Origin: an uncultured Methanobrevibacter sp.
GTDB lineage: Archaea; Methanobacteriota; Methanobacteria; Methanobacteriales; Methanobacteriaceae
Direction of reading: 5' to 3'
DNA length: 33,663 nucleotides
NCBI RefSeq assembly: GCF_947170395.1
Contig: NZ_CAMVTE010000025.1
Coordinates: forward strand, 1 to 33,663
Numbering within the stretch: the stretch's first letter is position 1; each line of letters starts with the position of its first letter. Under the pieces are notes generated by a model. The model did no database searches. It saw only the letters and a program-made list of their open reading frames with translations, and was not told the origin of the DNA. The position numbers and the translations under genes are program-made. Below, in pieces: positions 372-26,923 of the stretch.

Positions 372-373
372 AT

Positions 374-2014: not shown

Positions 2015-2031
2015 TTATATATTTATATATC
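2015..2031 (+). promoter_or_regulatory. Archaeal TATA box of the ABC exporter operon
   Basis: The tract TTATATATTTATATAT lies about 50 bp upstream of the ATG at 2077. The expected start of transcription, about 25 bp downstream, falls near 2046-2050, on the first GGTACCTAT box. This fits a leader of about 30 nt. Confidence 0.6.
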
Positions 2032-2045
2032 ATAAAAATCTAAAA

Positions 2046-2078
2046 GGTACCTATAACAAATTATTTAGGGGTACCTAT
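2046..2078 (+). promoter_or_regulatory. Paired GGTACCTAT boxes at transcription and translation start
   Basis: The 9-mer GGTACCTAT occurs at 2046-2054 and again at 2070-2078, 24 bp apart. Its core GGTACC is palindromic. The first copy overlaps the predicted transcription start. The second covers the ribosome-binding site (AGGGG) and the first bases of the start codon. Either copy could be an operator or an RNA-level control site. The match could also partly reflect ribosome-binding-site sequence. Confidence 0.35.
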
Positions 2079-5588: not shown

Positions 5589-6100
5589 ACAATGAATTTC
5601 TTTATCACAAATTGATATTCATCAATGAATCCCTTAAGAAAAGAAATGCCAACAACAAAAACACATCACGAGGCCAGGGAAGAATCCTGGCCATCCTAAA
5701 GCATAGGGAAGGCCTTTCTACCAAGGAACTTTCAGAGATATTGAACATCAAGGTACCATCACTTAATGAAACCCTAAACAAGCTGATAAAAAACGGGTAT
5801 ATTAGGAAAGAGGCTTCAAGTGAAGACAAAAGAGTTCTTCTGATATATCTCACAGACAAGGGCCGTGATGTCAAATTCAAAAAGCCGAAAGACATTGACA
5901 TATTCGACTGTCTGGATGAAAGCCAAAAGGAAATCTTTGACGAATGCCTGAATCTGATTTCAAAAGAACTTCATGAACGTCTGAAAGCCGACAACCCTGA
6001 AAAGTATGCTAAAATGCTTCAAGAGAGAAAGGAAGTGCTGAAAAAGTATTTTGACTGTGACATTACTCAAAGCGAATGGTATAGGTTACTTGAAAAATAA
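5585..6100 (+). CDS. MarR-type winged-helix transcription regulator
   Basis: This 171-aa protein has a winged helix-turn-helix at about residues 28-100. GLSTKELSEILNIKVPSLNE is the helix-turn-helix, and the wing (KEASSEDKRVLLIYLTDKG) is typical of MarR, where DxR contacts DNA. The C-terminal helices from about residue 105 would form the dimer. The start is TTG at 5585, overlapping the upstream TGA, with GGAGG at 5573-5577 correctly spaced; the ATG at 5592 is out of frame. It is the last gene of the exporter operon, so it probably represses that operon and responds to the exported compound. Candidate operators are the palindrome at 1992-2014 and the GGTACCTAT boxes. Confidence 0.85.
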   Translation: MNNEFLYHKLIFINESLKKRNANNKNTSRGQGRILAILKHREGLSTKELSEILNIKVPSLNETLNKLIKNGYIRKEASSEDKRVLLIYLTDKGRDVKFKKPKDIDIFDCLDESQKEIFDECLNLISKELHERLKADNPEKYAKMLQERKEVLKKYFDCDITQSEWYRLLEK

Positions 6101-6136
6101 GAAAATTTAAAAAAAATTGAATGAACTAAAAAATCA
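6101..6136. terminator. A/T-rich convergent gap, possible shared terminator
   Basis: Only 36 bp separate the stops of the convergent regulator and TPR genes. The minus strand reads through two T-rich runs here, the kind of signal used for archaeal termination. No strong stem was seen. Confidence 0.35.
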
Positions 6137-6934
6137 TCAATTTTTTTCCAAACACTTGTCCCACATCACTTTGGATTTTTCATCCAGAGGTTTTATGGAA
6201 TCTGCTTTTTTGAAAAAGCCCTTAGCCTTATCGAACTTGCCCCAATCATAATATGTGTAAGCCTTACCGATCCATACATCGAAATTGGAATCCTCATCAG
6301 TAAATATGGAATTGTATACGTTGATGGCATCATTATACTCGCCGTTCAATCTGTTTGCATTTGCAATGGCTAACCAGGCACGAACATCATCCCTGATTGC
6401 CAGACAGCTGATGAACTCTTCAATTGCACCGTCATAGTTCTCCATGTTGACCAATGCCTGACCCTTAATGTAGTATGCATCGAAATTTCTCTTGTTGACT
6501 GCTATTGCCTTGTCTGCAAGTTCAATTACACGCATATTGGTCTTGAAAAAATCATATTCATCGTAGTGCATTTTGTCAAGCTTTCTTTGAGCTCTCCTTA
6601 CATAATCGGCATCCCTATTGAGATATTCCTGGGTTTGCCTATAAGACTTTTTCAAATCCTCAGGAAGATCATCGCTGCTGATGATGCTTGACTTGAATTT
6701 GGATATGTCATCATAAATATCATCAATCTGATTGATTGTATCCTCGGCAAATTCCTCCAATTCCATATCATCGATTTTGCCTTCCAAATCCAGCTGTTTT
6801 AGAACTTCCCTGCTTTCATCTCTTAAAAAGTCGATTCCATCTGAAATCTGTTGGATTAATGTGGATTCAAAATAGACTTTGTCTGTGCTTCTTCTGTTGA
6901 CTTTAATGTCATCGCCATCATTAGATTTTTTCAT
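6137..6934 (-). CDS. TPR-repeat protein
   Basis: This 265-aa, acidic, probably cytoplasmic protein has no signal peptide or membrane segment. Residues 1-125 are charged and predicted helical, possibly coiled coil. Residues about 133-252 contain three to four tetratricopeptide repeats, recognisable by the YIKGQALVNMENYDGAIEEF pattern and two degenerate copies after it. TPRs bind other proteins, so this is probably an adaptor or assembly factor. Its partner cannot be read from the sequence. The start ATG follows an AGGTGA site. It lies downstream of the adhesin gene but behind a strong terminator, with its own AT-rich promoter region at about 6935-7010, so joint transcription is unlikely. Confidence 0.75.
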   Translation of the reverse strand: MKKSNDGDDIKVNRRSTDKVYFESTLIQQISDGIDFLRDESREVLKQLDLEGKIDDMELEEFAEDTINQIDDIYDDISKFKSSIISSDDLPEDLKKSYRQTQEYLNRDADYVRRAQRKLDKMHYDEYDFFKTNMRVIELADKAIAVNKRNFDAYYIKGQALVNMENYDGAIEEFISCLAIRDDVRAWLAIANANRLNGEYNDAINVYNSIFTDEDSNFDVWIGKAYTYYDWGKFDKAKGFFKKADSIKPLDEKSKVMWDKCLEKN

Positions 6935-7012: not shown

Positions 7013-7050
7013 TAAAAGAAAAAAAGTTAGTGAGAAATTAAATCTCACTA
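7013..7050 (-). terminator. Terminator of the adhesin gene overlapping its stop codon
   Basis: TAGTGAGA at 7028-7035 and TCTCACTA at 7043-7050 form a perfect 8-bp stem with a 7-nt loop. On the minus strand the stem is followed by a run of T residues (7013-7027). The TAG stop codon of the adhesin gene (7048-7050) is part of the stem. Confidence 0.75.
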
Positions 7051-10000
7051 GTTAATTTTTATTGTTGCTGTTTTAGTTGCGGATTTGTATGTATTATCTC
7101 CAGCGTAGCTGACAGTGGCTTTATATGAACCTTTTTTAGTTAAACTAAGTTTGAAGGTTGCTTGGCCTTTATCATTGGTTTTTGCTGTGATAGTTTTTCC
7201 GTCAACTTTTAAGGTTACCTTTTTGCCTGCTCCGAAGTATGTTTTGCCGTCTGCGCCTTTTACAGTGCTTAATGTTACTGTGTAGGATTTGGTTTTTGCA
7301 GATGCTTTATATGATTTGTTCGGAGCTGTGATTGTAACAGGCTTTTTGGTAATGGTAATCAGGTATACTGACATTGATGCGTCATAGCCTTCATCACCTA
7401 GGAATGCTACAGCGAAAGTCAATCTGTTTTCGGCTGCAAGGTTGATTTGTACACTTGCATAACCGTTTTCATCAGTGAATCTTTCTAAGCATTTACCGTT
7501 GTAACCTATGAGTACTGTTTTGTTTGCAAGAGGTTTGCCGCTTACGTCCTTGAGCTGTACGGTAAAGTTTCCACCTCTTTCACCTGCATTGTATTCTACA
7601 GCGTTTTGGGTGTAGTTGTTACCTTCAATGACTGTTGCAACTCTCTTAGGAGCAATGTCCTTTAAGACAATTGAAGAGTTTACAGGTGTGTTGATTTTAG
7701 AACCTGCGAAACCGAATTCAACCAAAGCGTTTGAACCAGCATCGATTGAAAATACACCGTTTTCATCAGTGGTTGTTGTATTTTCAACACCATTTACTTT
7801 GTAAACGATTTTTTCATTTGCGATTGGTTTTCCATTGCCGTTAAGTAAAGCCGCACTGATTGTTCCGTTACCGTTGATGGTCATGTCATCGAATCTGGAT
7901 TCTGTAACCTTTTGGGCTGTGATAATCATCTGGTTCAATGCCAAAATGGTGGAACCTGTTGCAACAAATGAGATGTTGACTACATCTGAAGCGTTGTCGG
8001 TTTCATAGCTAACATAATCAAGTGAGTTTGAAGAGCCGTTCCATTCATCAATGAATTCTTCTCCGTCGAGGATGATGTTTCCTTCACCTTTTTGAGCACC
8101 TGCAGCAAAGATAATTGCCTTATAGATGCTTACATCTTTGGTATCAATGGCAATTTGACTGTCTGAACTGACGATTCTTCCTGCCTTGTTGTAAGAACTT
8201 CCAGCCAGCAAATCGGCTCCGTCAGCCATGTATGCTGTGAAAATGTATTTGCTTCCGGTTTCATTCAAGAAGTAAATCATGTTGGAAGGATAGAAAGCAG
8301 TCAGTCCTTTAGGTTTATCAATGACAAGAGTGTTATTGCCGTTTTGAATGAGGTCAGTTACATCAAATACAAACAGACCGTAACCGTATATGCCAGAGGA
8401 ACCCAGATTGGACTGGTCCCTGTATTGGACTTTAGGAGTAATGACATTACCGTTGAAGGTTGCATTGAATATAGGTCCGTTTACACCGGATTTGTCCCAG
8501 TTATAGGCAAGATAAAGCAACGCTTTGGTTAATACTGAATCACCCATATCTATTTTCCAGACATCAGTTCTGTTAAGTGCAGATCCTGCTGCATATGTTG
8601 AAACATCCTGTGTATCAATTTTCATACCGCCGGTAAATTGAATGACAGAAATGTCTTCGATGTAGGTTGCATTGTAAGCCATGTCCTTTTCGAGATAACC
8701 GTTGTATAAAACAGGTACGGTTATGGAAGTTTCACCGACAAGTTCCTCTCCGTATTTTACGTTTACTGCATAGTTGACTTTTGTGTTGTTTGCACCGCTT
8801 ACGGTTGTCTCATCAACAGGCCTTACAGTAGGGTCAGTCAACATTACGGTAGTCTTGTTTGCACCATCCAAAGCGACAACGGTACTGTTTACAACACCAC
8901 CATCCGCAAGCAATTCAACTGTGTAGTTTGTTGGCTTGTTAGCTTTTACATCAATAGTAACAACATTGACGGTTCCTGCAAAGCAGGTGTTGGCATATTC
9001 GGTAGCCAAACTGACATCAGCTGCAACATTTTCTTTTGCTGTAAAAATCATCTGGTTCAATGCCAAAATGGTGGAACCTGTTGCAACAAATGATATATTG
9101 TTAATTTCAGGAGCGGTTTCATTGAACACGTAATAAACGAAACTTAATGAATTTGAAGTGTCGTTCCATACATTGACGTTTTCTACACCATTGTAAATGA
9201 TGTTACCTTCACCTTTTTGAGCTCCAGCTGCAAAGACAATAAGTTCTCCATAGTATATATTTGCAGTGTCGATTGAAATCTGACTGTCGGATTTGACCAG
9301 TCTTCCTGCCTTGTTGTATGAACTTCCAGCCAATAAATCAGCACCGTTTGCAATATATGCAGTGACAACTATATTGCTGTCTGTACTGTTCCAGAAGTAG
9401 ATTAGATTGGACGGATAGACAGCTGTCAGTCCTTTAGGTTTTTGTAAAACCATGGTATTTGTTCCATTTTGGACAATGTCAGATACATCATATACAAACA
9501 GACCGTAACCGTATTTGCCTGAGGAACCCATATTGGACTGATCCCTGTATTGGGCTTTAGGAGTAATGACCTTACCGTTGAAGGTTACGTTAAATACAGG
9601 TCCGTTTACACCGGATTTGTCCCAGTTATAAGCAATATAAACTAATGTATTGGCAAATGTTGAATTTTCATCCAGGTCAATTTCCCAAACGTCTGTTCTG
9701 TTGGTTACAGCAGCACCGATGTATGTTGAATCCTCCTGAACGTCAAACATGAATCCGCCGGTGACTGTGATTTTGGTGATGTCTTCAATGTATGTTGCAT
9801 TGTAAGCCATGTCCTTTTGAAGATAACCATTGTATAGAACAGGTACTTCCTTGGATATTTCACCAACGATGTCTGAGCCATATTTTACGTTTACTGCATA
9901 GTTGACTTTTGTGTTGTTTGCACCGCTTACAGTTGTCTCATCAACTGGCCTTACGGTAGGATCAGTCAACATTACGGTAGTCTTGTTTGCACCATCCAAA

Positions 10001-11028
10001 GCAATGACAGTACTGTTTACAACTTTACCGTCAGCCAAAAGTTCTACAGTATAATTGGCAGCCATGTCTGCTTTAACGTCACTGGTTATGACATTTACAG
10101 TGCCTGCAAAGCAGGTGTTTGTATATTCAGTAGCCAATGTGGCTTCACCAGCAATTCTATTTGACTTTAACCTTAAAACGGACAGCACATTTTTAAGTGA
10201 AGCGTAAGTTCCTGTACCTGCATTTGTAGAAATGAGTTCAGTTGAGGTATAGTCCTTTACCTTACCTGTTACGTTCCAATAGTTGTATTGGTAGTAGTTA
10301 CCGCTTGTATGGTTTGCGGCATCTCCCAGCAGTTCACCGTTGAGCATGTATGTTCCGTCACCGCTTGAAAGGGCAATGTTAATCAGGTCCGCTTCAGCGA
10401 TATCGAATGATGCGTCTGTTGGGAAAACGGTAGTCACATTTGTTTTTGTCCATTTTTGAGTAGAATCAACCCAATAGGAGATAGTATCATTGTCCCCATC
10501 ATCATAAGCTAAAATCAAAGCTATGAGTTTAATTCTTCCATCGAATGATTTGTTTTCCATACTGAAAGTATCAACCTTAATGACGACTGATGAACCGTTC
10601 AAACCCTTAAAGGTATCGGTTAAATCATAATACATCTGATAATCAGAATAACATTTGTTGATGTGATCATTTACTGTATAGATTGTTCCATCAGCGCTCC
10701 CATCTTCAATCCACAATTGCTCTGAAGCTATCTGCTTTTCTCCTGCAGTAGTATTGATGCTTACATTGGCATTTGCCCCGTAAGTATTCTTGGCACTACC
10801 TGCATAGACATTTACATATAAATCTGCATGCTTGATTTCCTTAGCATCAGAAGGCACGTCGTAGGTCAATTGCCCACTTGTAGTCCATGGATTGGCAGTA
10901 GCTACATCCACATCTCCTGAAACTACATCAGAATCAGTGCTCTGTAAATCGTCCGCACTTACAGCGCCCAGAGAAAAAACAATCATGGATATTAATACAA
11001 ATAAAAAGATAATTGATTTATTTCTCAT
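7048..11028 (-). CDS. Secreted adhesin-like protein with DUF3344 region, two large repeats and Ig-like domains
   Basis: This 1326-aa protein begins with a signal peptide (about 1-25, ending VSADD). Residues about 46-290 match the DUF3344 type found in methanogen surface proteins. Two long repeat units follow, about 297-672 and 673-1041. Each opens with (T/S)LATEY(T/A)NTCFAGTVNV and ends with VATGSTILALNQMI. The C-terminus holds Ig-like beta domains: about 1046-1125, 1130-1228 and 1230-1326. The last is of the bacterial Ig-like kind, with KVTLKVDGKTITAKTNDKGQ. Many N-x-S/T sites suggest glycosylation. No C-terminal membrane anchor is visible, so it is released or held by the Ig domains in the wall. 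Its upstream region carries six AGTAATACT-like boxes shared with the CobN operon, suggesting joint regulation and perhaps a ligand-capture role. Confidence 0.88.
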   Translation of the reverse strand: MRNKSIIFLFVLISMIVFSLGAVSADDLQSTDSDVVSGDVDVATANPWTTSGQLTYDVPSDAKEIKHADLYVNVYAGSAKNTYGANANVSINTTAGEKQIASEQLWIEDGSADGTIYTVNDHINKCYSDYQMYYDLTDTFKGLNGSSVVIKVDTFSMENKSFDGRIKLIALILAYDDGDNDTISYWVDSTQKWTKTNVTTVFPTDASFDIAEADLINIALSSGDGTYMLNGELLGDAANHTSGNYYQYNYWNVTGKVKDYTSTELISTNAGTGTYASLKNVLSVLRLKSNRIAGEATLATEYTNTCFAGTVNVITSDVKADMAANYTVELLADGKVVNSTVIALDGANKTTVMLTDPTVRPVDETTVSGANNTKVNYAVNVKYGSDIVGEISKEVPVLYNGYLQKDMAYNATYIEDITKITVTGGFMFDVQEDSTYIGAAVTNRTDVWEIDLDENSTFANTLVYIAYNWDKSGVNGPVFNVTFNGKVITPKAQYRDQSNMGSSGKYGYGLFVYDVSDIVQNGTNTMVLQKPKGLTAVYPSNLIYFWNSTDSNIVVTAYIANGADLLAGSSYNKAGRLVKSDSQISIDTANIYYGELIVFAAGAQKGEGNIIYNGVENVNVWNDTSNSLSFVYYVFNETAPEINNISFVATGSTILALNQMIFTAKENVAADVSLATEYANTCFAGTVNVVTIDVKANKPTNYTVELLADGGVVNSTVVALDGANKTTVMLTDPTVRPVDETTVSGANNTKVNYAVNVKYGEELVGETSITVPVLYNGYLEKDMAYNATYIEDISVIQFTGGMKIDTQDVSTYAAGSALNRTDVWKIDMGDSVLTKALLYLAYNWDKSGVNGPIFNATFNGNVITPKVQYRDQSNLGSSGIYGYGLFVFDVTDLIQNGNNTLVIDKPKGLTAFYPSNMIYFLNETGSKYIFTAYMADGADLLAGSSYNKAGRIVSSDSQIAIDTKDVSIYKAIIFAAGAQKGEGNIILDGEEFIDEWNGSSNSLDYVSYETDNASDVVNISFVATGSTILALNQMIITAQKVTESRFDDMTINGNGTISAALLNGNGKPIANEKIVYKVNGVENTTTTDENGVFSIDAGSNALVEFGFAGSKINTPVNSSIVLKDIAPKRVATVIEGNNYTQNAVEYNAGERGGNFTVQLKDVSGKPLANKTVLIGYNGKCLERFTDENGYASVQINLAAENRLTFAVAFLGDEGYDASMSVYLITITKKPVTITAPNKSYKASAKTKSYTVTLSTVKGADGKTYFGAGKKVTLKVDGKTITAKTNDKGQATFKLSLTKKGSYKATVSYAGDNTYKSATKTATIKIN
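7906..9012 (-). repeat. Second long internal repeat of the adhesin gene
   Basis: This encodes residues about 673-1041, a copy of the unit at 9013-10140. Long stretches are nearly identical in protein and DNA, including the segments coding TTVMLTDPTVRPVDETTVSG and ADLLAGSSYNKAGR. The near-identity points to a recent duplication or gene conversion and could allow recombination between the units. Confidence 0.8.
9013..10140 (-). repeat. First long internal repeat of the adhesin gene
   Basis: This encodes residues about 297-672, with a period of about 376 residues to the next unit. It carries the same conserved blocks as the copy at 7906-9012, with more differences in the middle and end. Confidence 0.8.
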
Positions 11029-11137
11029 AGTATCCCATAATAATTTTTCGGCATTTTATTTAAAGAAGAAATAAGAGGCGAATAAATATTAAGACATAAT
11101 AGAGCTTTAAATAAAATAGCCTTAATGTTAATGAAGT

Positions 11138-11285
11138 AGTAATACTGATATAAATATTATCTTAATACTAAATCGCGAAATTAGACCTAAAAAGTAATAC
11201 TTTTGCCAAATAGTAATACCAAATGGCTTAAAAATATAAAAAAAGTAATAACTAAATAAAAAAATAAAAAATGAAAAGTAATACT
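11138..11285 (-). promoter_or_regulatory. Array of six AGTAATACT-like boxes upstream of the adhesin gene
   Basis: Boxes start at 11138, 11161, 11193, 11212, 11244 and 11277. Those at 11138, 11193 and 11277 are exact AGTAATACT; the others differ by one or two bases (CTTAATACT, AGTAATACC, AGTAATAAC). The 9-mer is palindromic around its middle base. Distances to the start codon are 110, 133, 165, 184, 216 and 249 bp, nearly those of the array before the CobN gene. Several steps are 32-33 bp, about three helical turns. This is probably a binding array for a DNA-binding regulator. Which regulator is unknown. Confidence 0.75.
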
Positions 11286-11301
11286 TTATATATTAAATAT
11301 A

Positions 11302-11637
11302 TTAACCTTCCACCATAATCAGTTTGCCCGTTGCAGGATCCTTATATACCTTTCCCATTTCCATATAGCCCTGACCGGAACTTTCGGAAGACTCCGGAGT
11401 ATCATTGAGCTCCTGGCCCTCAGTCACTTCGGTAATGTTGGCTGTAGCCTCCTGAACCGCCTGACTCTGGTCCTGGGAAGTGTCTGAAAATATGACGCTC
11501 TGCATATTCCAGCTGATTACTACAAATATCAAAAATCCAACGGCAATAACAAGCATCGCATCAACAAGGTTTGTGGTTCCGGCTAAAGGATCCTCTTCAC
11601 CTTCACTGAATCTCTTTTTGCATTTACGCCTAACCAT
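11302..11637 (-). CDS. DUF2149 protein, ExbD-like stator subunit
   Basis: This 111-aa protein has one membrane helix (about 27-46) after a short basic N-terminus, and an outside tail rich in Gln, Glu and Ser. The motif DPLAGTTNLVDAMLVIAVGF places an Asp (residue 26) at the head of the helix, as in the proton-carrying Asp of ExbD/TolR (NVTPFIDVMLVLLI). It matches DUF2149, which occurs beside ExbB-like proteins in methanogens. It lies 15 bp downstream of the ExbB-like gene and closes the CobN operon. I infer that it forms a proton-driven motor with that protein. Confidence 0.8.
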   Translation of the reverse strand: MVRRKCKKRFSEGEEDPLAGTTNLVDAMLVIAVGFLIFVVISWNMQSVIFSDTSQDQSQAVQEATANITEVTEGQELNDTPESSESSGQGYMEMGKVYKDPATGKLIMVEG

Positions 11638-11652
11638 AGCTAGAACCCCATA

Positions 11653-12297
11653 TTACTGATTTAACTTATCCAATAAGGCATCGACCAGGGCATCAAGGTT
11701 GGATAAATCCTCTTCATACCATCTGCGTCTGATTTTTGAAACGAAATAGCCGACAGCACCCGAACCGATACCGACAACTGTAGTGTCGAATGCGACAATG
11801 ATTGCGCTGGCCAGGGTATTTACGTCACCGGCTCCCAAAGCGGCAAGACCGGGACCCATCGGAATCAGTGTACCCATAAGCCCTAATGTCGGACCGATAC
11901 GTGTGACTATATCTGTTCTTTCAATTGTTTTTCCAAGCTTTGTTTCCTCAAATTCAATCAGTTTGCGTGCAAGAGTCTGTCTGGAATCTGATGTCAATGA
12001 CTCTGCTCTCAATACCTTAACCAGAATGACTTTCTGGTTTTCATATAGCTTGGCATTCTTGATTATGTTCATCAGTTCATCAGCAGAACTTGCCCTTGAT
12101 ATTTCATAAATCAGCTTTTCAAGCAAGTCGGGTGTGACCTTCTTTCTGGAAGTGTATTCAGAAATAAGACTACCCAATGTAAGTATTGCAAAAAATGCAA
12201 ATATTACAAGAAATATGATTACAGGAATCTGGAGACTCTGAGCAATCATATTCAAACCGGAAGTCAGCACTTCACTTCCAGGAATTGTTGTTACCAT
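11653..12297 (-). CDS. MotA/TolQ/ExbB-family proton channel protein
   Basis: This 214-aa protein has three membrane helices: about 22-46, 130-155 and 165-187. Between the first and second is a cytoplasmic helical part (about 50-125). The motif RIGPTLGLMGTLIPMGPGL followed by LASAIIVAFDTTVVGI is the conserved core of MotA/TolQ/ExbB proteins that lines the proton path. It is packed tightly in the operon, 14 bp after the DUF2162 gene and 15 bp before the DUF2149 gene. With the ExbD-like protein it should make a motor driven by the ion gradient. Archaea lack the TonB/outer-membrane system, so the driven partner is probably the exported CobN-like protein or the DUF2162 permease. Confidence 0.88.
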   Translation of the reverse strand: MVTTIPGSEVLTSGLNMIAQSLQIPVIIFLVIFAFFAILTLGSLISEYTSRKKVTPDLLEKLIYEISRASSADELMNIIKNAKLYENQKVILVKVLRAESLTSDSRQTLARKLIEFEETKLGKTIERTDIVTRIGPTLGLMGTLIPMGPGLAALGAGDVNTLASAIIVAFDTTVVGIGSGAVGYFVSKIRRRWYEEDLSNLDALVDALLDKLNQ

Positions 12298-12311
12298 ATA
12301 CTATACCACCA

Positions 12312-13019
12312 TCAATCTAAATAACTGTTATTTTTAAAGTAAAATCCGCCTAAAAACATTATCATCAGCACCAAACCCAAAACAGCCAAAGCATATTCCG
12401 GAGAGGCTATTGTTATTGCATCCATAGGATTTTGCAGAAGTGCAGTAATGTTCGGCAGGAATAAAGCGGACAATAGGAAATAAATTCCTAAAAAGAACAT
12501 GAAATTTCCCAAAACAATCGGATAAGGTTTATTTACAAATCTGACCAGGTAATTTGAAGCGTAATATGTTAAAAGTATTGTCAAAACCAATGCAACAGCT
12601 ACAATTACGCTTAAATTCATGAGCCCCAATCCAACGGTAGGAGCCACCAGCATGATACTTACGATGATTGACCCAAAACAGCACGGGCAGGGAGCAACAA
12701 CCGCCATACATGTAGCTGCAGTTGTATTCTTTTCAAATACCTTATATTCCCTAATCGTAAATATTCCAGCCAAAATCATTATGACTGCCATTATCAGGAA
12801 AAATTCAAAATTATAAGTATAAATCAAATCGGTGATTTGAGTTGTAAAGAACGAGGATATCTCTGTCAATATCAAAACCCCTCCACCATAACCAATAGAA
12901 ACCATTGCCAAATATCTTTTTGACATGTTTGCAAGTCCTGTTGCAAGACCCAATTTGATTCCAAATATCAAAACAGCGGACAAGATTCCCAGCTGCCATA
13001 ACAAGTTAATTACTTCCAT
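12312..13019 (-). CDS. DUF2162 multi-pass membrane protein, probable transporter
   Basis: This 235-aa protein is almost entirely hydrophobic, with about seven helices. A Cys-Pro motif (APCPCCFGSI, about 109-118) lies at a helix end and looks suited to bind a metal or take part in thiol chemistry. The layout matches DUF2162, annotated as a predicted transporter of archaea and some bacteria. It follows the CobN-like gene by 34 bp and precedes the ExbB-like gene by 14 bp. It may carry the metal or tetrapyrrole released or captured by the CobN-like protein. The substrate is not shown by the sequence. The start ATG has a GAGGG site upstream. Confidence 0.75.
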   Translation of the reverse strand: MEVINLLWQLGILSAVLIFGIKLGLATGLANMSKRYLAMVSIGYGGGVLILTEISSFFTTQITDLIYTYNFEFFLIMAVIMILAGIFTIREYKVFEKNTTAATCMAVVAPCPCCFGSIIVSIMLVAPTVGLGLMNLSVIVAVALVLTILLTYYASNYLVRFVNKPYPIVLGNFMFFLGIYFLLSALFLPNITALLQNPMDAITIASPEYALAVLGLVLMIMFLGGFYFKNNSYLD

Positions 13020-13053
13020 TGTTTCCCTCTTTTAAAAAATAAAATAAAATGAA

Positions 13054-16000
13054 CTATAACTTTTCATTGAATAGTTCATCCAAATTATTGCTTTTCTTAA
13101 CATCATCCTTATCTCTAAAGTAACCGACTCCAATTATAAGAATTAAACATATCACTCCTAAAACTGCTATTAAACTCATTCCGACCTCACTTGCTGACTG
13201 TTGGGTTACCGGATTGATTTCAATGGATTTCTTGACGTCAGCCCCTTCCGCAGCAGATGCACCAACTTCTCCTGAAGAGGAACTTTCCCCCACATCTGAA
13301 ACTGCATCGCCGTTGGAGTTTCCATTGCTTTGTGAATGCTGAGTATTTGTTGTAGTTGCGTTTGAAGATATTGTTGAACTGGATGTTGAACCTTTTGTCG
13401 GATTTGGAGTTGAAGGTGCGCTGTTTGAAGGATCCGCATTTGCTTCAGGCGGAACGTTTTGGGTATTGTTTAAAAATACCGGGTTTTGAGTTGCGTCATA
13501 GAGTTTCGGAAGCAGTTGCGCAAGGATATCCGGATTTACGTACTGCACTGCCCATTGCATCATCGCAATGTTTCCGCAGCTGCAGTCACAGCATGCCACA
13601 CCGTTTTTGACAGTTGCCTGAGCCCATGTATTTGCAATGTTGCTCAATGTGGCATCATCAGCATTCCAATATCCTTCGTGAATGGAGGTCAGCATTGTTC
13701 CACTCATTGAAATGAGTGAATATGCATTGTTTCCGCTTTTAAGCCATTCTGTTACTCCCAGATTATATTTGTCATTGTAATATGTATCGTAAACCCTGTT
13801 CCACAGGTCATCTGAAACTGAAGAAGGCCTTGTTACCTGCCAACCGTAAAGGTTGCTTACGAATTTGTTTGACATGTAACGTGCACCGCTGTATCCTTCA
13901 GCCATCATTCCCTTAATCCAATTCGGATTGTCATATCTTGCTGCGATTTCCTTATACATCACCTCTTCAAGAGATGAGATATATGCGTTGCTTTTATCGG
14001 CATACATCAGCACCTTCATCTTAGGGGATTTTCCTGAAACGTTTTCAACAGCCATGGACAGTCCTCCCCAGTAATCGAAGAAGTCGTCGTTGTCGAGAAC
14101 CCCATACTGGTTTGTGTTACGGCTGGTAATTATTGTGTCGGAATTTGACAGCGCCCTTAAAAAAACAAGGGAATTTGTATCTCCCCAGTAATTTTTGGAA
14201 TACATGTTTCCCATTCTTCCAAGGTAGAACTGGGCAAGCTCATCAGTATTGTTCCATGTCCATGACATTGATACCAATTTTGATATTCCGGCACCGTAAT
14301 CCCCGTTAGGCGGTGCAAATATCCTTGTTATTGCGCATTCGCCTGCATAGGTTGCATTGTATCCTATGCTTAAATAATAAAGACAATCCTCTATCCAATG
14401 TTGAGCGACATAATTGTCACTTAAATCTTCATTTGAAGCACCATAATAATTGATTCCACCGACAACGCCTTCAAGAGCCTGTCTGAGCTGACTGCCGTAT
14501 TCCCCATTCATCAAAGTATCATTGTTGATTATTGTGAGATATGACCTTGCCAAAGTCACCCTATATGCGTTGTCCAAAAGAATTGACTGTGAAGAGTACA
14601 AATCCCTAAACAGTCCGCTTGTAATTACGGTTACATCTATTCTTTTTTTGGCCCATCCATCAGGACGGGTCAAATCGTTGAGTTTAATAACTTCAGGCAT
14701 TGCACCAACCTTTTTACCAGTAGGATTTCCTTCATCGTCAAAACCTGCTGATGATGAATCTGTCCAGACAGGCTTCATTCCAAGCAGATAAAGGACTGAT
14801 GAAACCAATGCCCCATCATCCCTTGCTGTTTCAACACACCAGATACCCATTATGACCTTTTCGGTTGTATCATTGAGGTCTGCCAGTGTGAGGAGTGCAA
14901 GGGTTTTTGCATAATTCCAGGCATCCTGTGTAGGAAGCTCACTTGACTGGTCCTGGAACATGTTTCCACCTGTCGGAAGCACGGAAGGTTTAACTACAAC
15001 CTCTCCACCTTCACTTACAGGAACATATCGACCGTTCAAACCGTTAAGCATTGAATCGAGCTCACAGGATATGCTCTGATTAATTAAATTGATGTATGTT
15101 TTTGCAAGGTCAAGACAGGCAATCAGATTTGCATTTGCATCCTTAATCATTGAACCGACAGTATCCACATCCCAATAAATCAGTGCCCTGCAGATGTCAT
15201 AGGACTTGTTCATTATAAATTCCCTTTCAAATGCGGACAAGTCACCGTAATCTTTTGAGTAGTAGATTTTTGAAAGTTCAGTGAATAAATTAAGGACTCC
15301 CTGATTGTCATCCAATACCAGATCATGAGCAAGCATTGCACTTACCGTATTGGCAATGTCAGCTTCGCTCCATGCCTCTCCTAAAGCATGAAGACCTAAA
15401 GGATATAAGGTATCCTGAGCTGATTTAAGGAATGTATTTACCTTCTGGATTAAATCGGCATCGCCAATTTGTCCGACATCACTCTTGTTAAGACCAAGAT
15501 TGGTTGAATAGTCATTTGCAATGACCAAATCCCTGATTGAGCTGGAAATGTTCTGTCTTTGGGAATCGGTTTTGGCACCGTCATAGTCATTGACAAGACT
15601 GGCCAAAACAGTAAGATTGCCATAAAGATGAGTGAATGCCATCGGAGATGTGAGGTGTGAAATTATCACTGCAAAACCTCTTCTTTTGGCCTGGATAGCT
15701 TCACCCAAACCGTCACTGATATAGAAATAAAGCTGCGGAACGTCACCGACAACAATTGATCCGTAATCGGTGGCTGACAAAAGAATCTCTTTTCCAGGCA
15801 GCCATTCGTGGGTTGCATGTCTTCCTACAAAAATCATTGAATTTGAATATCTTGTCTGCATATAGTAGTATGCGGCCAGATATTGATGTGTTGGAGCAAC
15901 GGCAGTACAGTGGTAGAGATTTTCAATGTCTGACTCCCAACCCCTTTGAGGTTCAGGGGCGATGAATACGTTTCCGAATGTCAGACCCGGAATTACAAAA

Positions 16001-18105
16001 TAGTCCTTGCCGTTTCTGTTTACCACCATGACTTCACCTGGAGCTTCACCCCAGCCGTTGAGTCCTGAAACGTTTAACTCCTTGAATTCATCATAATACT
16101 TTAAGTATAATCCATAATAATCGGGATTGTGTGTTTTGGCATAATTCTTCAATGCTGAGACTATATTGTCCAGAACCCTTTTGGATTGGACTGACTTTTC
16201 ATCCGGCAGAAGGGCTACAACCTGATTGTACCAGTCGTCAATGGTATCTGAGATTGTTACTGTATAGTTGAGCTCAACAGCCCTTCTGGTCAGCTCGCCG
16301 ATATATGCAACGGTTCCGTTTGAAACCTGTATCTTTACGATATCGTCAAGTGAGTTGAACCATGAGGTATATTCATCGACGCTTAAAAGAACGACACCGC
16401 TGCGGTTTGCCAGTTTTTCAAGCTCTCCCGGAGCCCATGTGGCCACGTTTATACCGCAGGAAATGATTAAATCTTCAAGCTCGGACACGTTACTTGGCAG
16501 ATTTTCTACAGTGTATCCTGCATTCTTTAATGTTAAAAGCATGTTGTAAACACTTTTTATTGTATCCAAATAACTGGAACCGATGTTCTGTTTTCCCGGA
16601 GGATAGTTGTAATAGATTATTGAAATCATTTTGTCTTCATTCAATGTGTATTTCAAATCCACCCATGAATCAATCCTGTCCGAGAGAAGCTCAATGTTTC
16701 CCTTATGGGAAATGTATGTTGAGATTCTGGCTCCTGTCAGGTTTGAAATGTAGCTTGAAGCTCCTCCTATGAATGTCGCATCAATAATACCCTGGGTTTC
16801 GGCAATGGTAATGTGCCACCATTTGTCACTCTTTTCTGTTGTAAGACCTGTTGAGCCAAGCTCCCACTGTTCATTTGAAACGTAATCAGAATGGACAGCA
16901 CGAAATACAGGCACACCTACCTCTTCAAAGAATTTGGTTGCCTTGGTGAAGTTCTCTCCACCTACACCATATGCCACCATGGACACTATTGCATCGACGT
17001 AAACGTCATAGTCTGTGGAATTTGCCAGAAATCCTGAAATGTCTCCTCCCGCATTTGTCCATGATTCAACCATTACGGCCAACTGCTCGGCAGATCCCCC
17101 TGCAGCAAAGACAGGAATTACATTGTAGCCTCTTGCTTCAAGAGATTCTATGATTGAATAGCATGTATGCAACTGTTGGGATTCGATATACATTGTACTT
17201 TCAAGAATACCTACGGTACGGGTATTTGACGGGTTGAAGAATGTTTGCATATATTCATCAAGTGAATACCATCTGTCCCTATAGATTCCATAGGTTTTGG
17301 ACCCTGTAAAGGTTGGATTTTCATATTCTGTATCATGACCCAGATAATTCAGGATGCACAATATCTGATTTTTCAGATTGTCCTTGTCATTGAGGTCCTT
17401 GTAAAGAACCATCTGGTTTAAAAAGGAGTTGAAATTCTTTCCTTCACCATTCAGATAATCATACACTTTCGAATAGGAAAGTCCCCTTTTGGTATTTTTA
17501 AAGTACTTTATCAAATCCTCGTTGGAGATGCCATTGAAAATCTTATTGTAGTTCAATGTATTGTTTCGAATAAGGCTTATTGAACTTGATTCTGAATTCA
17601 TGTTGCCTGAAGGCGGCTCCAATATCAGAAATATCTTCTTATTGGACAGGTCGGGATTTTTGCCCATGACACTTGTCAAAACGGAATCCACATCACTGCT
17701 TATCCATTCGCCGATAAAACCGTCACAAGCTGAAAGATAGCCTATAAGCTCACTTTCATCCATTGTCTTGACCTGGTCACCGCTTCTGACAATCAGATTA
17801 ACATTATTCAGGCTGTTTTCATCGAGAAGTTCAAAAGCTGCCTTGTCTAAAACATTCACTCCCGGATTATCGCTAATTATAAATAAAGTAGTTTGTTGAG
17901 AATTTGCAATATTCTCATATGAATCGTTAACTGGAATCTTTTTAGAATCCTGACTGTCTGAAACCTTCACAGTACCCTCAGACAAATCCTGACTGAGACT
18001 ATCTGTGGCATTCTGCTCGGCAAATGCAGTGTTGAGTGAAATGCCAAACAACAGCACTACCAAAAGCATCAAAACAATCATCTGTTTATTTCTAAAAAAA
18101 CTCAT
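13054..18105 (-). CDS. Exported, membrane-anchored CobN/HmuS-type chelatase
   Basis: This 1683-aa protein is of the CobN / magnesium-chelatase-H family. The family motif GRHATHEWLPGKEILLS (about 760-776) continues into GDVPQLYFY and AKRRGFAVIISHLT, matching CobN. A Cys cluster, CCDCSCGN (about 1502-1510), lies near the end. Unlike cytoplasmic CobN it has a signal peptide (about 1-30, hydrophobic VLMLLVVLLFGISL), a low-complexity Ser/Thr/Asn linker (about 1560-1635), a membrane helix (about 1642-1661) and a basic cytoplasmic tail. It must therefore work outside the membrane without CobS/CobT ATPase help. Its followers are DUF2162, ExbB-like and DUF2149, the order I recall for bacterial hmuSTUV, where HmuS handles haem. 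Removal of metal from a tetrapyrrole or corrinoid uptake is likely. The start has an AAGGTGAA site. Confidence 0.88.
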   Translation of the reverse strand: MSFFRNKQMIVLMLLVVLLFGISLNTAFAEQNATDSLSQDLSEGTVKVSDSQDSKKIPVNDSYENIANSQQTTLFIISDNPGVNVLDKAAFELLDENSLNNVNLIVRSGDQVKTMDESELIGYLSACDGFIGEWISSDVDSVLTSVMGKNPDLSNKKIFLILEPPSGNMNSESSSISLIRNNTLNYNKIFNGISNEDLIKYFKNTKRGLSYSKVYDYLNGEGKNFNSFLNQMVLYKDLNDKDNLKNQILCILNYLGHDTEYENPTFTGSKTYGIYRDRWYSLDEYMQTFFNPSNTRTVGILESTMYIESQQLHTCYSIIESLEARGYNVIPVFAAGGSAEQLAVMVESWTNAGGDISGFLANSTDYDVYVDAIVSMVAYGVGGENFTKATKFFEEVGVPVFRAVHSDYVSNEQWELGSTGLTTEKSDKWWHITIAETQGIIDATFIGGASSYISNLTGARISTYISHKGNIELLSDRIDSWVDLKYTLNEDKMISIIYYNYPPGKQNIGSSYLDTIKSVYNMLLTLKNAGYTVENLPSNVSELEDLIISCGINVATWAPGELEKLANRSGVVLLSVDEYTSWFNSLDDIVKIQVSNGTVAYIGELTRRAVELNYTVTISDTIDDWYNQVVALLPDEKSVQSKRVLDNIVSALKNYAKTHNPDYYGLYLKYYDEFKELNVSGLNGWGEAPGEVMVVNRNGKDYFVIPGLTFGNVFIAPEPQRGWESDIENLYHCTAVAPTHQYLAAYYYMQTRYSNSMIFVGRHATHEWLPGKEILLSATDYGSIVVGDVPQLYFYISDGLGEAIQAKRRGFAVIISHLTSPMAFTHLYGNLTVLASLVNDYDGAKTDSQRQNISSSIRDLVIANDYSTNLGLNKSDVGQIGDADLIQKVNTFLKSAQDTLYPLGLHALGEAWSEADIANTVSAMLAHDLVLDDNQGVLNLFTELSKIYYSKDYGDLSAFEREFIMNKSYDICRALIYWDVDTVGSMIKDANANLIACLDLAKTYINLINQSISCELDSMLNGLNGRYVPVSEGGEVVVKPSVLPTGGNMFQDQSSELPTQDAWNYAKTLALLTLADLNDTTEKVIMGIWCVETARDDGALVSSVLYLLGMKPVWTDSSSAGFDDEGNPTGKKVGAMPEVIKLNDLTRPDGWAKKRIDVTVITSGLFRDLYSSQSILLDNAYRVTLARSYLTIINNDTLMNGEYGSQLRQALEGVVGGINYYGASNEDLSDNYVAQHWIEDCLYYLSIGYNATYAGECAITRIFAPPNGDYGAGISKLVSMSWTWNNTDELAQFYLGRMGNMYSKNYWGDTNSLVFLRALSNSDTIITSRNTNQYGVLDNDDFFDYWGGLSMAVENVSGKSPKMKVLMYADKSNAYISSLEEVMYKEIAARYDNPNWIKGMMAEGYSGARYMSNKFVSNLYGWQVTRPSSVSDDLWNRVYDTYYNDKYNLGVTEWLKSGNNAYSLISMSGTMLTSIHEGYWNADDATLSNIANTWAQATVKNGVACCDCSCGNIAMMQWAVQYVNPDILAQLLPKLYDATQNPVFLNNTQNVPPEANADPSNSAPSTPNPTKGSTSSSTISSNATTTNTQHSQSNGNSNGDAVSDVGESSSSGEVGASAAEGADVKKSIEINPVTQQSASEVGMSLIAVLGVICLILIIGVGYFRDKDDVKKSNNLDELFNEKL

Positions 18106-18210
18106 TAAAATTCACCTTAAATTTTAAAGGACCGTAGCAAAATTACAAATAAAATTATTACTACATACAATATTTTTGTAATAAAATTTGATTTAAAGTT
18201 TTCTAAAAAA

Positions 18211-18363
18211 AGTAATACTAAAATGCCTTAAATCGCAAAAAAAGTAATACTAACGATTATTTAATATAAATAGTAATACTTCGTATTTAAATAAACAAAA
18301 TAAAAGTAATACATCCCAAATGAGTAATACTAAAAGTGGAAAATCAGACAAAAAAGTAATACT
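18211..18363 (-). promoter_or_regulatory. Array of six AGTAATACT boxes upstream of the CobN-type operon
   Basis: Boxes start at 18211, 18243, 18272, 18305, 18323 and 18355. Five are exact AGTAATACT; the one at 18305 ends in A. Distances to the CobN start codon are 106, 138, 167, 200, 218 and 250 bp. Five of these lie within 4-5 bp of a box in the adhesin array (110, 133, 165, 216, 249). The last box ends just before the stop codon of the MATE gene (18369). The arrangement suggests cooperative binding of one regulator on both promoters, possibly one that senses a metal or tetrapyrrole. Confidence 0.8.
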
Positions 18364-21370: not shown

Positions 21371-21400
21371 AAAGTGCAAGTAAATGTTAAATTTACTCGC
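21371..21400 (-). terminator. Probable terminator of the second HD-RyR gene
   Basis: AGTAAAT at 21379-21385 and ATTTACT at 21391-21397 form a 7-bp stem with a 5-nt loop that includes the TAA stop codon (21393-21395). On the minus strand an AT-rich tract with short T-runs follows (about 21360-21375). The T-run is weak. Confidence 0.45.
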
Positions 21401-23732
21401 TTCTGACAATCTTTAGGCCAACAAACTTATCTGCACATAACTCTGGAAGTTTTGAAAAGGTAAGTTTGTTTTTATTTTTTGTTTTAGGGTTTAAATTATC
21501 CCATTGAACAAAATTATCGCTGTCAGTTTCATTCAAATTAAGTTTGAGCTGATACCAAGCTTCATGTTCCCTTTCAGCAAAGTAATCTATGTCATCAGAA
21601 TCAAATTGAGTTATGGCATCCCTTTGGTCTGAGAGTGGAACTAGCTCAAATCCTTTCTCTTTTAAAATTTTAACCAGATGTTCGGCCTGAATATAATTTG
21701 AAAACTGTACCTGCTTAGGCAGATCCTTGAAAACGGATTCCCCATCGGAATCAGGGTCGATATTTCCTGTTTCATACAGCTGGTTCATCTTATAGGTAAG
21801 TGCCTTAAGTCGGCTTCTTACAACCTTCAATCCTATTGACTTTAAAAGTTGAGGAATGATTCTGATTGATTCCTTATCAAGTTCCTGCACTTCCGGAGAG
21901 AGGTTTTCCCATTCGGTAAGACCTGGAGATATTCTTCTGTCGACGTCCTTGTCGTCTCCAAAAATCCAGCCGCTTCCTTCCCTTTCCTCACGCCAGCTTT
22001 CATGTTCGAAAATTGCCAAATCCTCAACATCCTTTTCATTGATGTGGTCGATTTCAATCAGCTTGTCGTCATCATCTACGACACCGTCGTGAGCTATTTC
22101 ACAACCGATCATTGTTAACTTGACCGGAATAGATTTTGCCTGGCGAATGTTGGACATTATAAAGTCGGAAGGGAGTTTGTAGAAGTCATCCTTTTTATTT
22201 GCACATTTAGACTGATACAACTCGATTTCCTCTTCGTCATTGTTTTCAATGGCTTCCTTTAACTTTTCCTCATTGTAGATGTGGTTGAGTTCGATAGCCA
22301 GTTTTTCAATGTTTCTCAAAAGGACATCCGGAGCGGAAATCTGGGAGAAATGAACATCCCTTTTAACGGAATCCAATCGGATATCCGGAATAATTGATAG
22401 CTTTTCAGGGAATATCTTTTCAACATCAAGAACGCTTGCAATGAAATTGTCCTTTTTCTTTTCAAAACCAAGACCCATTGCACCGTTTTTAAGAATATAA
22501 GTTACTTTCATACGCTGGTCATCAATATAGACATCCATGTCATTTACACGATTGTTCTGCTTGTCTATCACACCATAAGGACGTCTGTTCCATTCCTGAA
22601 GCTCGTCACAGAATATCAAAAGATAGGAAATCGGTGAACTTCTAGGATTCATTTTACCAAAATCAAATGTTTCCTGCAAGGTCTTGTTGTAGTAGTTATG
22701 AAGCAAAATAGCTGTAGCACTGTCTACAATCGGATAGAAGAAGAAATCCTTATTTTTCTTGGCGTATTTCTGAATAAGTTTACCGTAAGAGTTCAAAACC
22801 AGAATGGCTGAAAAGTAACCGTGGTCAATGAAGCCCTTATCGTTCATGTGCTTTACAAAGCCGTTAAGATGCTTGATTAACTTTCTGAATTCAAGAGGTT
22901 CCATCTTGAAGTCCATTGCAATTTTGTGAGCCATGATTTCGGTGGGTTTGAATAAATCAAGGACCTTTGTTCTTTTGTATCTGCCCCTGTACTCATCGGC
23001 ATAATTATAAGGAGGCAGCTTTACGATTGCATTGAACTCGTTGAAATCCCTGAAGTCAATGTGGGCATCGACATCATAATTGACTGAAATGGATTTTACA
23101 CCATCTTCAATGAACTTGTCGATCTGTTTTCCTATGATTTCAAAAGGATATCCTATATCGTGGAACAGTGCGGCTATTCCCCAGCGGTAGAGGAACTCCT
23201 CATGAGACATTTCACCGTTGATTCTATAATATTTAGTGTAATGCTTGTTTTTGAGAATATATTCCTTAAATATCTCCCTATACCTTTTGTTTTGAGCATA
23301 GATTGCAAGACCCAGAATGAATACGTTGACGGAGTGGATGAAATGATCCCTTTGCCTGTTGATTAAATCGCCTGTATTTTCCTCATAGGTTCTCATTATG
23401 TCCACCAAATCAAGAAGAGTGTTCGGTTCGCTTATCAAAGCGTCAGGACTGCTTTCGTCGATTTCGCTTTTATCTTCGGGAGTGATTTGGTAAATCATCA
23501 GAAATGTTTCGTAAACCTGATATGCAGTGTAGGTTGATTCATTGTCTATGAAAACGTCAATGGATGATTTGAGGATTTTTTTGTAATTGTGATGTGTCGG
23601 ATTGCCGTCGGCATCGTCAAATTCCTTTAAATCATCATACAGTTGAATGTTGTCAAAGAACTTGTCGAGGTATTGCTTGAGATTGGATTTCTCGAGGATT
23701 TCGTTGTTTTCTTCAATAGTTTTTTCTGCCAT
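21393..23732 (-). CDS. HD-domain phosphohydrolase fused to two RyR-like domains (copy 2)
   Basis: This is a 779-aa cytoplasmic protein. The HD domain spans about 125-380, with His133 (HSVNVF), His191-Asp192 (LFHDIGYP) and a late Asp376 (CDELQEW). These are the expected metal ligands, so it is probably active on a phosphoester such as a nucleotide. The C-terminus carries two RyR-like domains. The first (about 570-640) reads LAIFEHESW, GWIFGDD and P.L.EW..L, the RyR consensus. The second (about 715-779) keeps LAEREHEAW-type residues but lacks the GW..G turn. RyR domains are ligand-binding modules best known from ryanodine receptors and also found in prokaryotes. It is a tandem duplicate of the next upstream gene. 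The start ATG follows AAGGTGGG. Confidence 0.78.
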   Translation of the reverse strand: MAEKTIEENNEILEKSNLKQYLDKFFDNIQLYDDLKEFDDADGNPTHHNYKKILKSSIDVFIDNESTYTAYQVYETFLMIYQITPEDKSEIDESSPDALISEPNTLLDLVDIMRTYEENTGDLINRQRDHFIHSVNVFILGLAIYAQNKRYREIFKEYILKNKHYTKYYRINGEMSHEEFLYRWGIAALFHDIGYPFEIIGKQIDKFIEDGVKSISVNYDVDAHIDFRDFNEFNAIVKLPPYNYADEYRGRYKRTKVLDLFKPTEIMAHKIAMDFKMEPLEFRKLIKHLNGFVKHMNDKGFIDHGYFSAILVLNSYGKLIQKYAKKNKDFFFYPIVDSATAILLHNYYNKTLQETFDFGKMNPRSSPISYLLIFCDELQEWNRRPYGVIDKQNNRVNDMDVYIDDQRMKVTYILKNGAMGLGFEKKKDNFIASVLDVEKIFPEKLSIIPDIRLDSVKRDVHFSQISAPDVLLRNIEKLAIELNHIYNEEKLKEAIENNDEEEIELYQSKCANKKDDFYKLPSDFIMSNIRQAKSIPVKLTMIGCEIAHDGVVDDDDKLIEIDHINEKDVEDLAIFEHESWREEREGSGWIFGDDKDVDRRISPGLTEWENLSPEVQELDKESIRIIPQLLKSIGLKVVRSRLKALTYKMNQLYETGNIDPDSDGESVFKDLPKQVQFSNYIQAEHLVKILKEKGFELVPLSDQRDAITQFDSDDIDYFAEREHEAWYQLKLNLNETDSDNFVQWDNLNPKTKNKNKLTFSKLPELCADKFVGLKIVRSE

Positions 23733-23823
23733 TTTCCCACCTTAAAAGTATTATATATTTAGTATTTATCCTTTTATTAAATAATAGTTATACACAAGTG
23801 GAAAAAATAGTTTACATAATGTT

Positions 23824-23867
23824 TTAAAAAAATAGGAAAAATTGTCAAATTAATTTTTGACAATTTT
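23824..23867 (-). terminator. Terminator of the first HD-RyR gene overlapping its stop codon
   Basis: AAAATTGTCAAA at 23838-23849 and TTTGACAATTTT at 23856-23867 are perfect 12-nt inverted repeats around a 6-nt loop. On the minus strand the stem includes the last codons of the gene and is followed by a T-run (23825-23831). The two HD-RyR genes are thus probably separate transcripts, with AT-rich promoter sequence for the second at about 23750-23790. Confidence 0.7.
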
Positions 23868-26093: not shown

Positions 26094-26155
26094 TTTAAAC
26101 ACCTAATTAATATAGATTATATCATTTGTTTTAATTAAACATTGTCATTAAAAAT

Positions 26156-26923
26156 CTAGATTCTGAATTTCAGTTGCTTCTGCACATCTTTGATTGAATC
26201 CACATCAGCGGACAAATCAATGTCCAGATATGTCTTGACCTTTGTATCAAAGCTTGAGGACATGATAATCTGGTTTGAGAAAAGCTCATAGCTTTCAACA
26301 GGACAGTGCCCGACAACCATGCATTTACATCCCACAATGTCCAAAAACCTGTCCACATCTTCTCTTGTGTACTGGGTAACCTTCGTAAATCGGTTCCATA
26401 AAAAATCATACAACATAGGGCTTGAATAGCCATCCTCAAACATCCTGTTGAATGCCTCAATCGAACGGATCTTGGCTGAAGGGCCCGAATGAGATATGAA
26501 AATGCCGTTTGCGGTTCTTGCAAAATATGGCATTGTCTTGAAGAATCTGATGTAGTTGGTAAGTGCCGGTTCGATGTATCCCTTTTTGAATGAAACCAGA
26601 TTTTTAAAGTTCATAAGCAAATCCTCATGGTTTTTATAGATTGTCTTGTGGGTTATGTGAGCCCATTCATGGTTTCCCAGAAGAGTGTGGAAATTGGCAA
26701 ACTGTGAGGACTTTGACATTGCATCATCAAGGATTTCAACAGACCCGTCACTGTCCATGTCAAGGCCGTGAATCAAATCCCCCACAAATACAATGTGAAA
26801 ATCAGTGTCGCTTTCATCCCAGAGATTTACATAATAGTTATAATCATCCAGATTCCCATGAAGGTCTGTTACGACTATCAGACGACCATGATTAGGAAGT
26901 TCAATCATTTTAGGGTTAATCAT
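26156..26923 (-). CDS. PPP-type serine/threonine protein phosphatase
   Basis: This 255-aa metallophosphatase has the PPP motif set: TDLHGN (19-24, Asp20 and His22), GDLIHG (48-53), GNHE (83-86), SHSGP (His145) and VGHCP (His206). The second motif lacks the Arg of GDxVDRG. These residues bind two metal ions and the phosphate. It is probably cytoplasmic. A protein kinase and an FHA phosphopeptide reader are encoded just upstream, so removing phosphate from that kinase's targets is a natural guess. It could instead act on nucleotides such as diadenosine tetraphosphate, as ApaH relatives do. It starts four bases after the stop of a 45-aa ORF, with an AGGTGA site inside that ORF's end. Confidence 0.85.
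   Translation of the reverse strand: MINPKMIELPNHGRLIVVTDLHGNLDDYNYYVNLWDESDTDFHIVFVGDLIHGLDMDSDGSVEILDDAMSKSSQFANFHTLLGNHEWAHITHKTIYKNHEDLLMNFKNLVSFKKGYIEPALTNYIRFFKTMPYFARTANGIFISHSGPSAKIRSIEAFNRMFEDGYSSPMLYDFLWNRFTKVTQYTREDVDRFLDIVGCKCMVVGHCPVESYELFSNQIIMSSSFDTKVKTYLDIDLSADVDSIKDVQKQLKFRI

Follow-up and report, generated by a model that had tools for sequence, protein, structure and literature searches.

Box arrays upstream of the adhesin gene and the CobN-type operon

The stretch of DNA analysed here (the window, 33,663 nt) belongs to an uncultured Methanobrevibacter sp. whose own genome assembly comprises 2.25 Mb and is 88.8% complete. It contains a gene for a DUF3344 adhesin-like surface protein and, next to it, an operon headed by a CobN-type gene, and six AGTAATACT-like boxes precede each of these transcription units (Table 1). 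The single box is the quasi-palindromic 9-mer AGTAWTACT; three of the six boxes are exact in the adhesin array and five of the six in the CobN array, the remainder carrying one or two mismatches. All eight exact boxes of the window are located within the two intergenic stretches. Each stretch was dinucleotide-shuffled 5000 times; the shuffled versions contained on average 0.008 and 0.010 exact boxes, and the observed three or five were reached in 0/5000 cases each. The twelve boxes and their distances to the start codons are as listed in an earlier, sequence-only reading of this DNA, and they lie beyond chance.

That reading had also pointed to steps of 32-33 bp between boxes and to matching distances of the two arrays from their start codons. 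In the adhesin array these steps (11161-11193, 11212-11244 and 11244-11277) appear only when mismatched boxes are counted, its exact boxes being 55 and 84 bp apart. The matching distances, true within the window, failed as a functional feature, since orthologous CobN arrays with exact boxes possess one to five such boxes, at other distances. The number of six and the matching distances are a local detail and not a conserved feature; the recurrent unit is a set of two boxes 31-33 bp apart. When the own sequence was aligned with nine close relatives, column identity was 94.1% in the boxes against 72.5% outside them. In the same alignment a putative BRE/TATA-like element (BRE, B recognition element) follows closely on the last full box, on its downstream side, and an extra box with one mismatch would be close to the expected transcription start of the CobN gene.

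Conservation of the paired box

A lone box means little, because single exact boxes in the own genome are only slightly above background, with 52 occurrences against 40 for the reversed pattern that served as control; as a marker of the regulon it was rejected. Exact pairs 24-54 bp apart, by comparison, numbered 13 in the own genome against one in the control, four of them belonging to the CobN array and none to the adhesin array. Throughout the 119 genomes of the host's family such pairs amounted to 516 against 18, and they occurred in 100 genomes, control pairs in 16; some of the family-wide pairs are chance or low-complexity matches, for instance in genome G015. Ten palindromes of the same form were used as further controls. 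The fetched loci held 243 distinct pairs no more than 90 bp apart, 15, 67 and 25 of them (together 107) at 31, 32 and 33 bp, where the control palindromes gave 0 pairs at 28-33 bp; it weakens this figure that many of the loci had been chosen for pairs 24-54 bp apart, a choice that does not favour 32 bp within that range. Where one box of a 32-bp pair was exact and the second was allowed two mismatches (133 pairs), the core GTAWTA of that second box was near-invariant while the outer bases varied.

The relation of the boxes to their genes was analysed at 44 CobN loci found by protein and not by motif, five of which, with less than 200 bp upstream, were dropped. In 37 of the remaining 39 loci CobN has an exact box no more than 400 bp upstream, and in 34 a pair at 31-33 bp, the ten control palindromes averaging 0.3/39. 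Adhesin-type genes in these loci (52 found) have an exact box in 33/48 cases and a pair in 16/48. The inner operon genes for the DUF2162, MotA and DUF2149 proteins have no exact box upstream (0/40, 0/40 and 0/39). These counts support the earlier proposal of one regulon joining the adhesin gene to the CobN operon; the opposite picture, of boxes scattered irrespective of genes and not conserved before orthologous CobN and DUF3344 genes, was not what was found.

Genes behind the boxes and a probable link to nickel

Exact pairs in the own genome precede the CobN operon and the genes for a nicotianamine synthase, the NikA-like member of an oligopeptide/nickel-type ATP-binding cassette (ABC) transporter, a GNAT protein and two heavy-metal P-type ATPases; two boxes at a distance of 63 bp precede a HypA gene. 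With 141 vs 393 bits, the NikA-like protein does not reach the nikA cut-off. Within the fetched loci, an exact box no more than 400 bp upstream was counted for genes of NikA-like proteins (15), CbiM (13), GNAT (12), P-type ATPases (12), an iron-sulphur protein (7), OppD-like proteins (6), adhesins (4), CobN (4), nicotianamine synthase (3), Hmd (3), HmdC (3), CbiQ (2) and, once each, HypA, HypB, a CbiX-type protein and CbiB. In 14 genomes selected for pairs, the genes recurring no more than 3 kb from an exact box were NikA-like (14 genomes), OppB (13), GNAT, OppD, CbiM, CbiQ and a PDGLE-domain gene (12 each), and P-type ATPase (11). The box targets thus include genes of nickel uptake and of nickel enzymes, as would be expected of a NikR regulon.

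The hmd gene provided a set of loci not selected by the motif. An Hmd-family match came up in 90 of 149 genomes, though not in the own genome, and 39 loci of the own family and 11 of families f2 and f3 were examined. The count in the own family refers to 38 loci, 37 of them with enough upstream sequence (L349, whose start is missing, and L355, with 5 bp upstream, were dropped): an exact box precedes 23 of the 37, and 23 show a pair with no more than two mismatches, the controls giving 0.2 and 0. Hmd and HmdC genes carry boxes in divergent orientation; HmdC we take to be the HcgG family. According to PMC3087415, hmd replaces a nickel hydrogenase under nickel limitation and its transcription goes up; according to PMC12350162, the proteins Hmd, HcgG, CobN1 and NikR1 of Methanothermobacter marburgensis go up under the same limitation. 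Since the same kinds of genes carry the boxes, the regulon is read as one of nickel.

At two P-type ATPase promoters (L016 and L017) near-identical box-TATA-box units are repeated, each with an inner GAGT-N10-ACTC-like palindrome, and a second regulator may act there.

NikR as the candidate binder

Among the NikR-, DtxR- and TroR-like regulators put forward at the outset, NikR fits best, given that the other members point to nickel, and the regulon is wider than was then noted. A NikR_C match is present in 109 of the 119 genomes of the host's family. The own NikR (L097:4220-4669) has PF08753 and RHH_1 domains and resembles the Pyrococcus horikoshii protein (2bj1, E 4e-34); the H, HxH and C residues, presumably the nickel ligands, are present in the alignment of both.

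Family f2 seems Methanothermobacter-like by its gene content. In six of its genomes 32-bp pairs with no more than three mismatches numbered 59 against 22 in the control, and in 4/4 of those possessing a NikR paralogue a diverged pair at exactly 32 bp precedes the paralogue gene, with the first box exact in one and carrying one mismatch in three, and the second box carrying two. The 19 f2 loci fetched around 32-bp pairs show them before the NikR paralogue, several CobN genes, nicotianamine synthase/GNAT genes, CbiM operons and genes for large surface-type proteins. At two places in this family (L308:2773-9001 and L317:2699-5931) a one-mismatch pair is found before a gene for a 591-aa protein that looks like a Mg-chelatase ATPase, followed by membrane and ABC-type genes; in L308 a CobN gene follows in the same gene run.

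A regulator gene near the targets was sought in the 14 genomes, and none was present in more than four among the clusters identified; the scan took 10 recurrent clusters, leaving out four (of 704, 332, 206 and 372 aa) and those in fewer than three genomes.

Proteins of the operon and the adhesin

The window's CobN-like protein has HmuS (9d26, E 1e-93) as its best solved relative. Against the NCBIfam cobaltochelatase equivalogs it scores 743 vs 1619 and 456 vs 822 bits, below every matched cut-off. A methionine-rich insertion marks HmuS, according to PMC12583661. The corresponding stretch 927-1003 of the CobN-like protein, which spans a gap in the HmuS alignment, has two methionines and falls short of its HmuS counterpart by about 145 residues; because the insertion was not seen, the protein was not filed as HmuS. 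No TonB receptor was found among the 18 window open reading frames (ORFs) scanned, so that the six-gene hmuYRSTUV operon is incomplete, only an S-T-U-V-like order being recognizable; of the products of that operon, PMC13227078 describes HmuT as a putative permease, assigns HmuU to the MotA/TolQ/ExbB proteins and calls HmuV hypothetical. When Bacteroidota HmuT was sought with the DUF2162 protein, the best 120 of 884 matches all belonged to PF09930 and, where named, were methanogen proteins or a plain 'predicted transporter'. The DUF2149 protein, whose family was met in only one of 14 control genomes, that of Methanosarcina acetivorans, may be ExbD/TolR-like.

Table 1. Genes, boxes and promoter-like elements of the two transcription units
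Feature	Position	Strand	Basis or remark
Adhesin-like surface protein, DUF3344 and immunoglobulin-like domains, N-terminal signal-like stretch	7048..11028	(-)	Pfam, translation, hydrophobicity
TATA-like element, putative adhesin promoter	11106..11114	(-)	by eye from sequence
Box, exact	11138..11146	(-)	110 bp from adhesin start
Weak box, 2 mismatches	11161..11169	(-)	133 bp from adhesin start; 32 bp to box at 11193
Box, exact	11193..11201	(-)	165 bp from adhesin start
Box, 1 mismatch	11212..11220	(-)	184 bp from adhesin start
Weak box, 2 mismatches	11244..11252	(-)	216 bp from adhesin start; 32 bp to box at 11212
Box, exact	11277..11285	(-)	249 bp from adhesin start; 33 bp to box at 11244
Small membrane protein with DUF2149; acidic residue in its single hydrophobic stretch	11302..11637	(-)	Pfam, hydrophobicity
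MotA/TolQ/ExbB-family protein	11653..12297	(-)	Pfam
DUF2162 predicted transporter, 7 hydrophobic stretches, CPCC motif	12312..13019	(-)	Pfam, hydrophobicity
CobN/HmuS-like chelatase-superfamily protein	13054..18105	(-)	Pfam; signal-like N-terminus, C-terminal hydrophobic anchor
Extra box, 1 mismatch, AGTAATAAT on the gene strand	18154..18162	(-)	AGTAATA kept in 9 aligned relatives
BRE/TATA-like element, putative	18190..18204	(-)	alike in 9 aligned relatives
Box, exact	18211..18219	(-)	106 bp from CobN start
Box, exact	18243..18251	(-)	138 bp from CobN start
Box, exact	18272..18280	(-)	167 bp from CobN start
Box, 1 mismatch	18305..18313	(-)	200 bp from CobN start
Box, exact	18323..18331	(-)	218 bp from CobN start
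Box, exact	18355..18363	(-)	250 bp from CobN start

A second set of DUF2149, MotA-like and DUF2162-like genes is found elsewhere in the own genome (C12:25000-38000, L020, positions 8-6148), downstream of a gene that is preceded by lone boxes and whose 872-aa product has an FmdE domain and a signal-like start, an arrangement as if FmdE had replaced CobN; a related 773-aa gene in genome G060 (L129) has boxes too. The window further contains a transposase in two ORFs (374-1705; helix-turn-helix part 374-883, DDE_3 part 1061-1705), two ABC exporter subunits followed by a MarR-family regulator (2077-6100), and two adjoining RyR-domain proteins (21393-26102), the latter having as neighbours a metallophosphatase (26156-26923) and a fusion of protein kinase and Hsp70 (27127-30681).

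A proposed nickel-limitation regulon

With fair confidence we interpret the boxes as operators of a nickel-limitation regulon of Methanobacteriales, probably repressed by nickel-bound NikR, in which the CobN operon and the adhesin would serve nickel acquisition. The operator unit would consist of two AGTAWTACT 9-mers about 32 bp apart, that is, three helical turns, and the arrays would repeat this unit. When nickel is plentiful, the nickel-bound regulator, most likely NikR, would bind the box pairs around the promoter from a single side of the double helix and repress transcription, and when nickel is short the target genes would be released. One array would control the operon, which encodes a CobN/HmuS-like protein, taken to be secreted and anchored in the membrane, along with a permease, an ExbB-like protein and the DUF2149 protein; the other would control the neighbouring adhesin-like surface protein. 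The products of both units would probably act together to trap a source of nickel on the outer side of the membrane and to release the metal from it or take it in; co-regulation suggests that the CobN-like protein releases nickel from a chelate.

A more detailed version of this scheme is put forward tentatively, as being rather doubtful in its particulars. It would involve nickel scavenging at the cell surface, with the adhesin presenting the source and an ExbB-energised, extracytoplasmic CobN-like de-chelatase stripping tetrapyrroles (F430 of dead methanogens) or other chelates, under NikR control via a three-turn operator unlike that of E. coli. Such a system would assign a function to the archaeal CobN/HmuS homologues, which are expanded and unexplained.

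Several observations sit badly with the nickel-limitation regulon. With regard to its membership, 14 of the 37 hmd genes are without an exact box, genome G087 has NikR and hmd and no pair, and in 8/8 cases the f2 hmd genes show just one box, 25-26 bp ahead of the start, with no partner at 32 bp. P-type ATPases of a type that usually exports are among the strongest box targets. About 30 singleton clusters, for the most part genes of the own genome preceded by a lone box, show no clear connection with nickel save the few named above, and the pair of the f2 locus L307 precedes genes with no visible one. Other genes of the CobN loci have an exact box in 18/185 cases and a pair in 13/185, most of these 13 being divergent neighbours in the CobN intergenic stretch; seven such neighbours were tested as nicotianamine synthases and gave no match. 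The position of the boxes relative to TATA-like elements varies, as judged by eye, and therefore box anatomy does not prove repression. With regard to NikR, the spacing of 31-33 bp departs from that of the E. coli operator GTATGA-N16-TCATAC, in which the centres of the half-sites are 22 bp apart (PMC7055735). The 32-bp pairs with no more than three mismatches are not enriched (108 vs 104 in the control) in seven genomes with a NikR_C match (genera g9, g11, g12, g14 and g17), one of which, G027, carries a diverged pair in the space separating CobN from DUF2162, nor in two f3 genomes (4 vs 6). Finally, as regards a possible autoregulation, the 31 nikR loci examined in the own family, where 109 genomes have a match, show no exact pair upstream (0/31), and a single exact box in one (L073).

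Part of these observations would be accommodated by a nickel regulon with another binder, for instance a dimer of MarR, TrmB or Lrp type oligomerising over boxes three turns apart, with NikR engaged elsewhere. The genera with NikR and without pairs and the spacing unlike that of E. coli speak for it, as do a MarR gene no more than 3 kb from boxes in 3/14 genomes and a sub-cut-off TrmB match in 4/14. These neighbours are missing, however, from most of the 14 genomes, as far as the 10 scanned clusters go, and the 32-bp pair before the NikR paralogue in every f2 genome that has one points back to NikR, so that we regard another binder as unlikely. A cobalt or cobamide regulon, in which cobalt or B12 would be the signal acting on the boxes, is suggested by the names CobN, CbiM, CbiB and CbiX, and by the boxes of CbiM, CbiQ, one CbiX-type and one CbiB gene. 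Nevertheless, hmd, HmdC, HypA, HypB and nicotianamine synthase are linked to nickel rather than to cobalt, CbiX-type proteins serve F430 too, and the first of the scores given above leaves the CobN-like protein under the cobaltochelatase cut-offs, all of which makes such a regulon very improbable. Still harder to credit is an iron or haem regulon of DtxR/Fur/IdeR type, with the CobN-like protein acting as a haem de-chelatase like HmuS: that haem dechelatase is the nearest solved relative, but its methionine-rich insertion was not seen, and neither Feo nor any other iron-uptake gene was met among the scanned proteins of the box loci. A non-regulatory repeat, in which the phased boxes would be architectural or mobile with no specific regulator, would agree with the differing number and position of boxes in the arrays, yet it is practically negligible in view of the coherent gene set, the box-free inner operon genes and the maintenance of boxes while their flanks diverge.

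If the nickel-limitation reading is true, the control shared with hmd, nicotianamine synthase and nickel-type transporters would point concretely and testably to nickel. Adhesin-like proteins, usually read as attachment factors, would be tied to metal supply. Moreover, the operator could allow the nickel response of gut and rumen methanogens to be read from sequence.

Comparison with known systems

The window's CobN-like protein shares with the cobaltochelatase CobN the Pfam CobN/Mg-chelatase domain and differs from it by its signal-like start, its C-terminal anchor and its sub-cut-off scores. The operon resembles hmuSTUV of Bacteroidota in having a membrane-bound chelatase-superfamily protein and in the order of CobN-like protein, permease, MotA/TolQ/ExbB protein and small protein; as the likeness is one of gene order, the homology of DUF2162 to HmuT and of DUF2149 to HmuV is only putative. 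Unlike the hmu system, neither a TonB receptor nor a hemophore was seen here, the methionine-rich insertion was not seen either, the linked genes are those of nickel and not of iron, and an adhesin gene lies alongside.

The nickel response of M. marburgensis involves the same kinds of genes that carry boxes here (Hmd, HcgG, CobN1 and NikR1), whereas the available texts of PMC12350162 and PMC3087415 contain no operator, and the word 'adhesin' is absent from the main text of the former. A literature search covering mostly titles and the beginnings of abstracts gave no report describing the box, nor one of a nickel regulon to which CobN and adhesins belong. NikR control of NikMNQO-type transporters was predicted for eight methanogens by Rodionov in 2006, as cited in PMC10617489, and part of the operator may already be contained in that work.

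The NikR regulons of E. coli and H. pylori differ from the present one in that the boxes here are 9-bp near-perfect palindromes about 32 bp apart and not 22, in arrays of up to six, and that CobN-like proteins, adhesins and hmd are included among the targets. They resemble it in their nickel-uptake targets, in half-sites placed whole helical turns apart and in the presence of NikR, to which the f2 paralogue with a diverged box pair of its own may be added.

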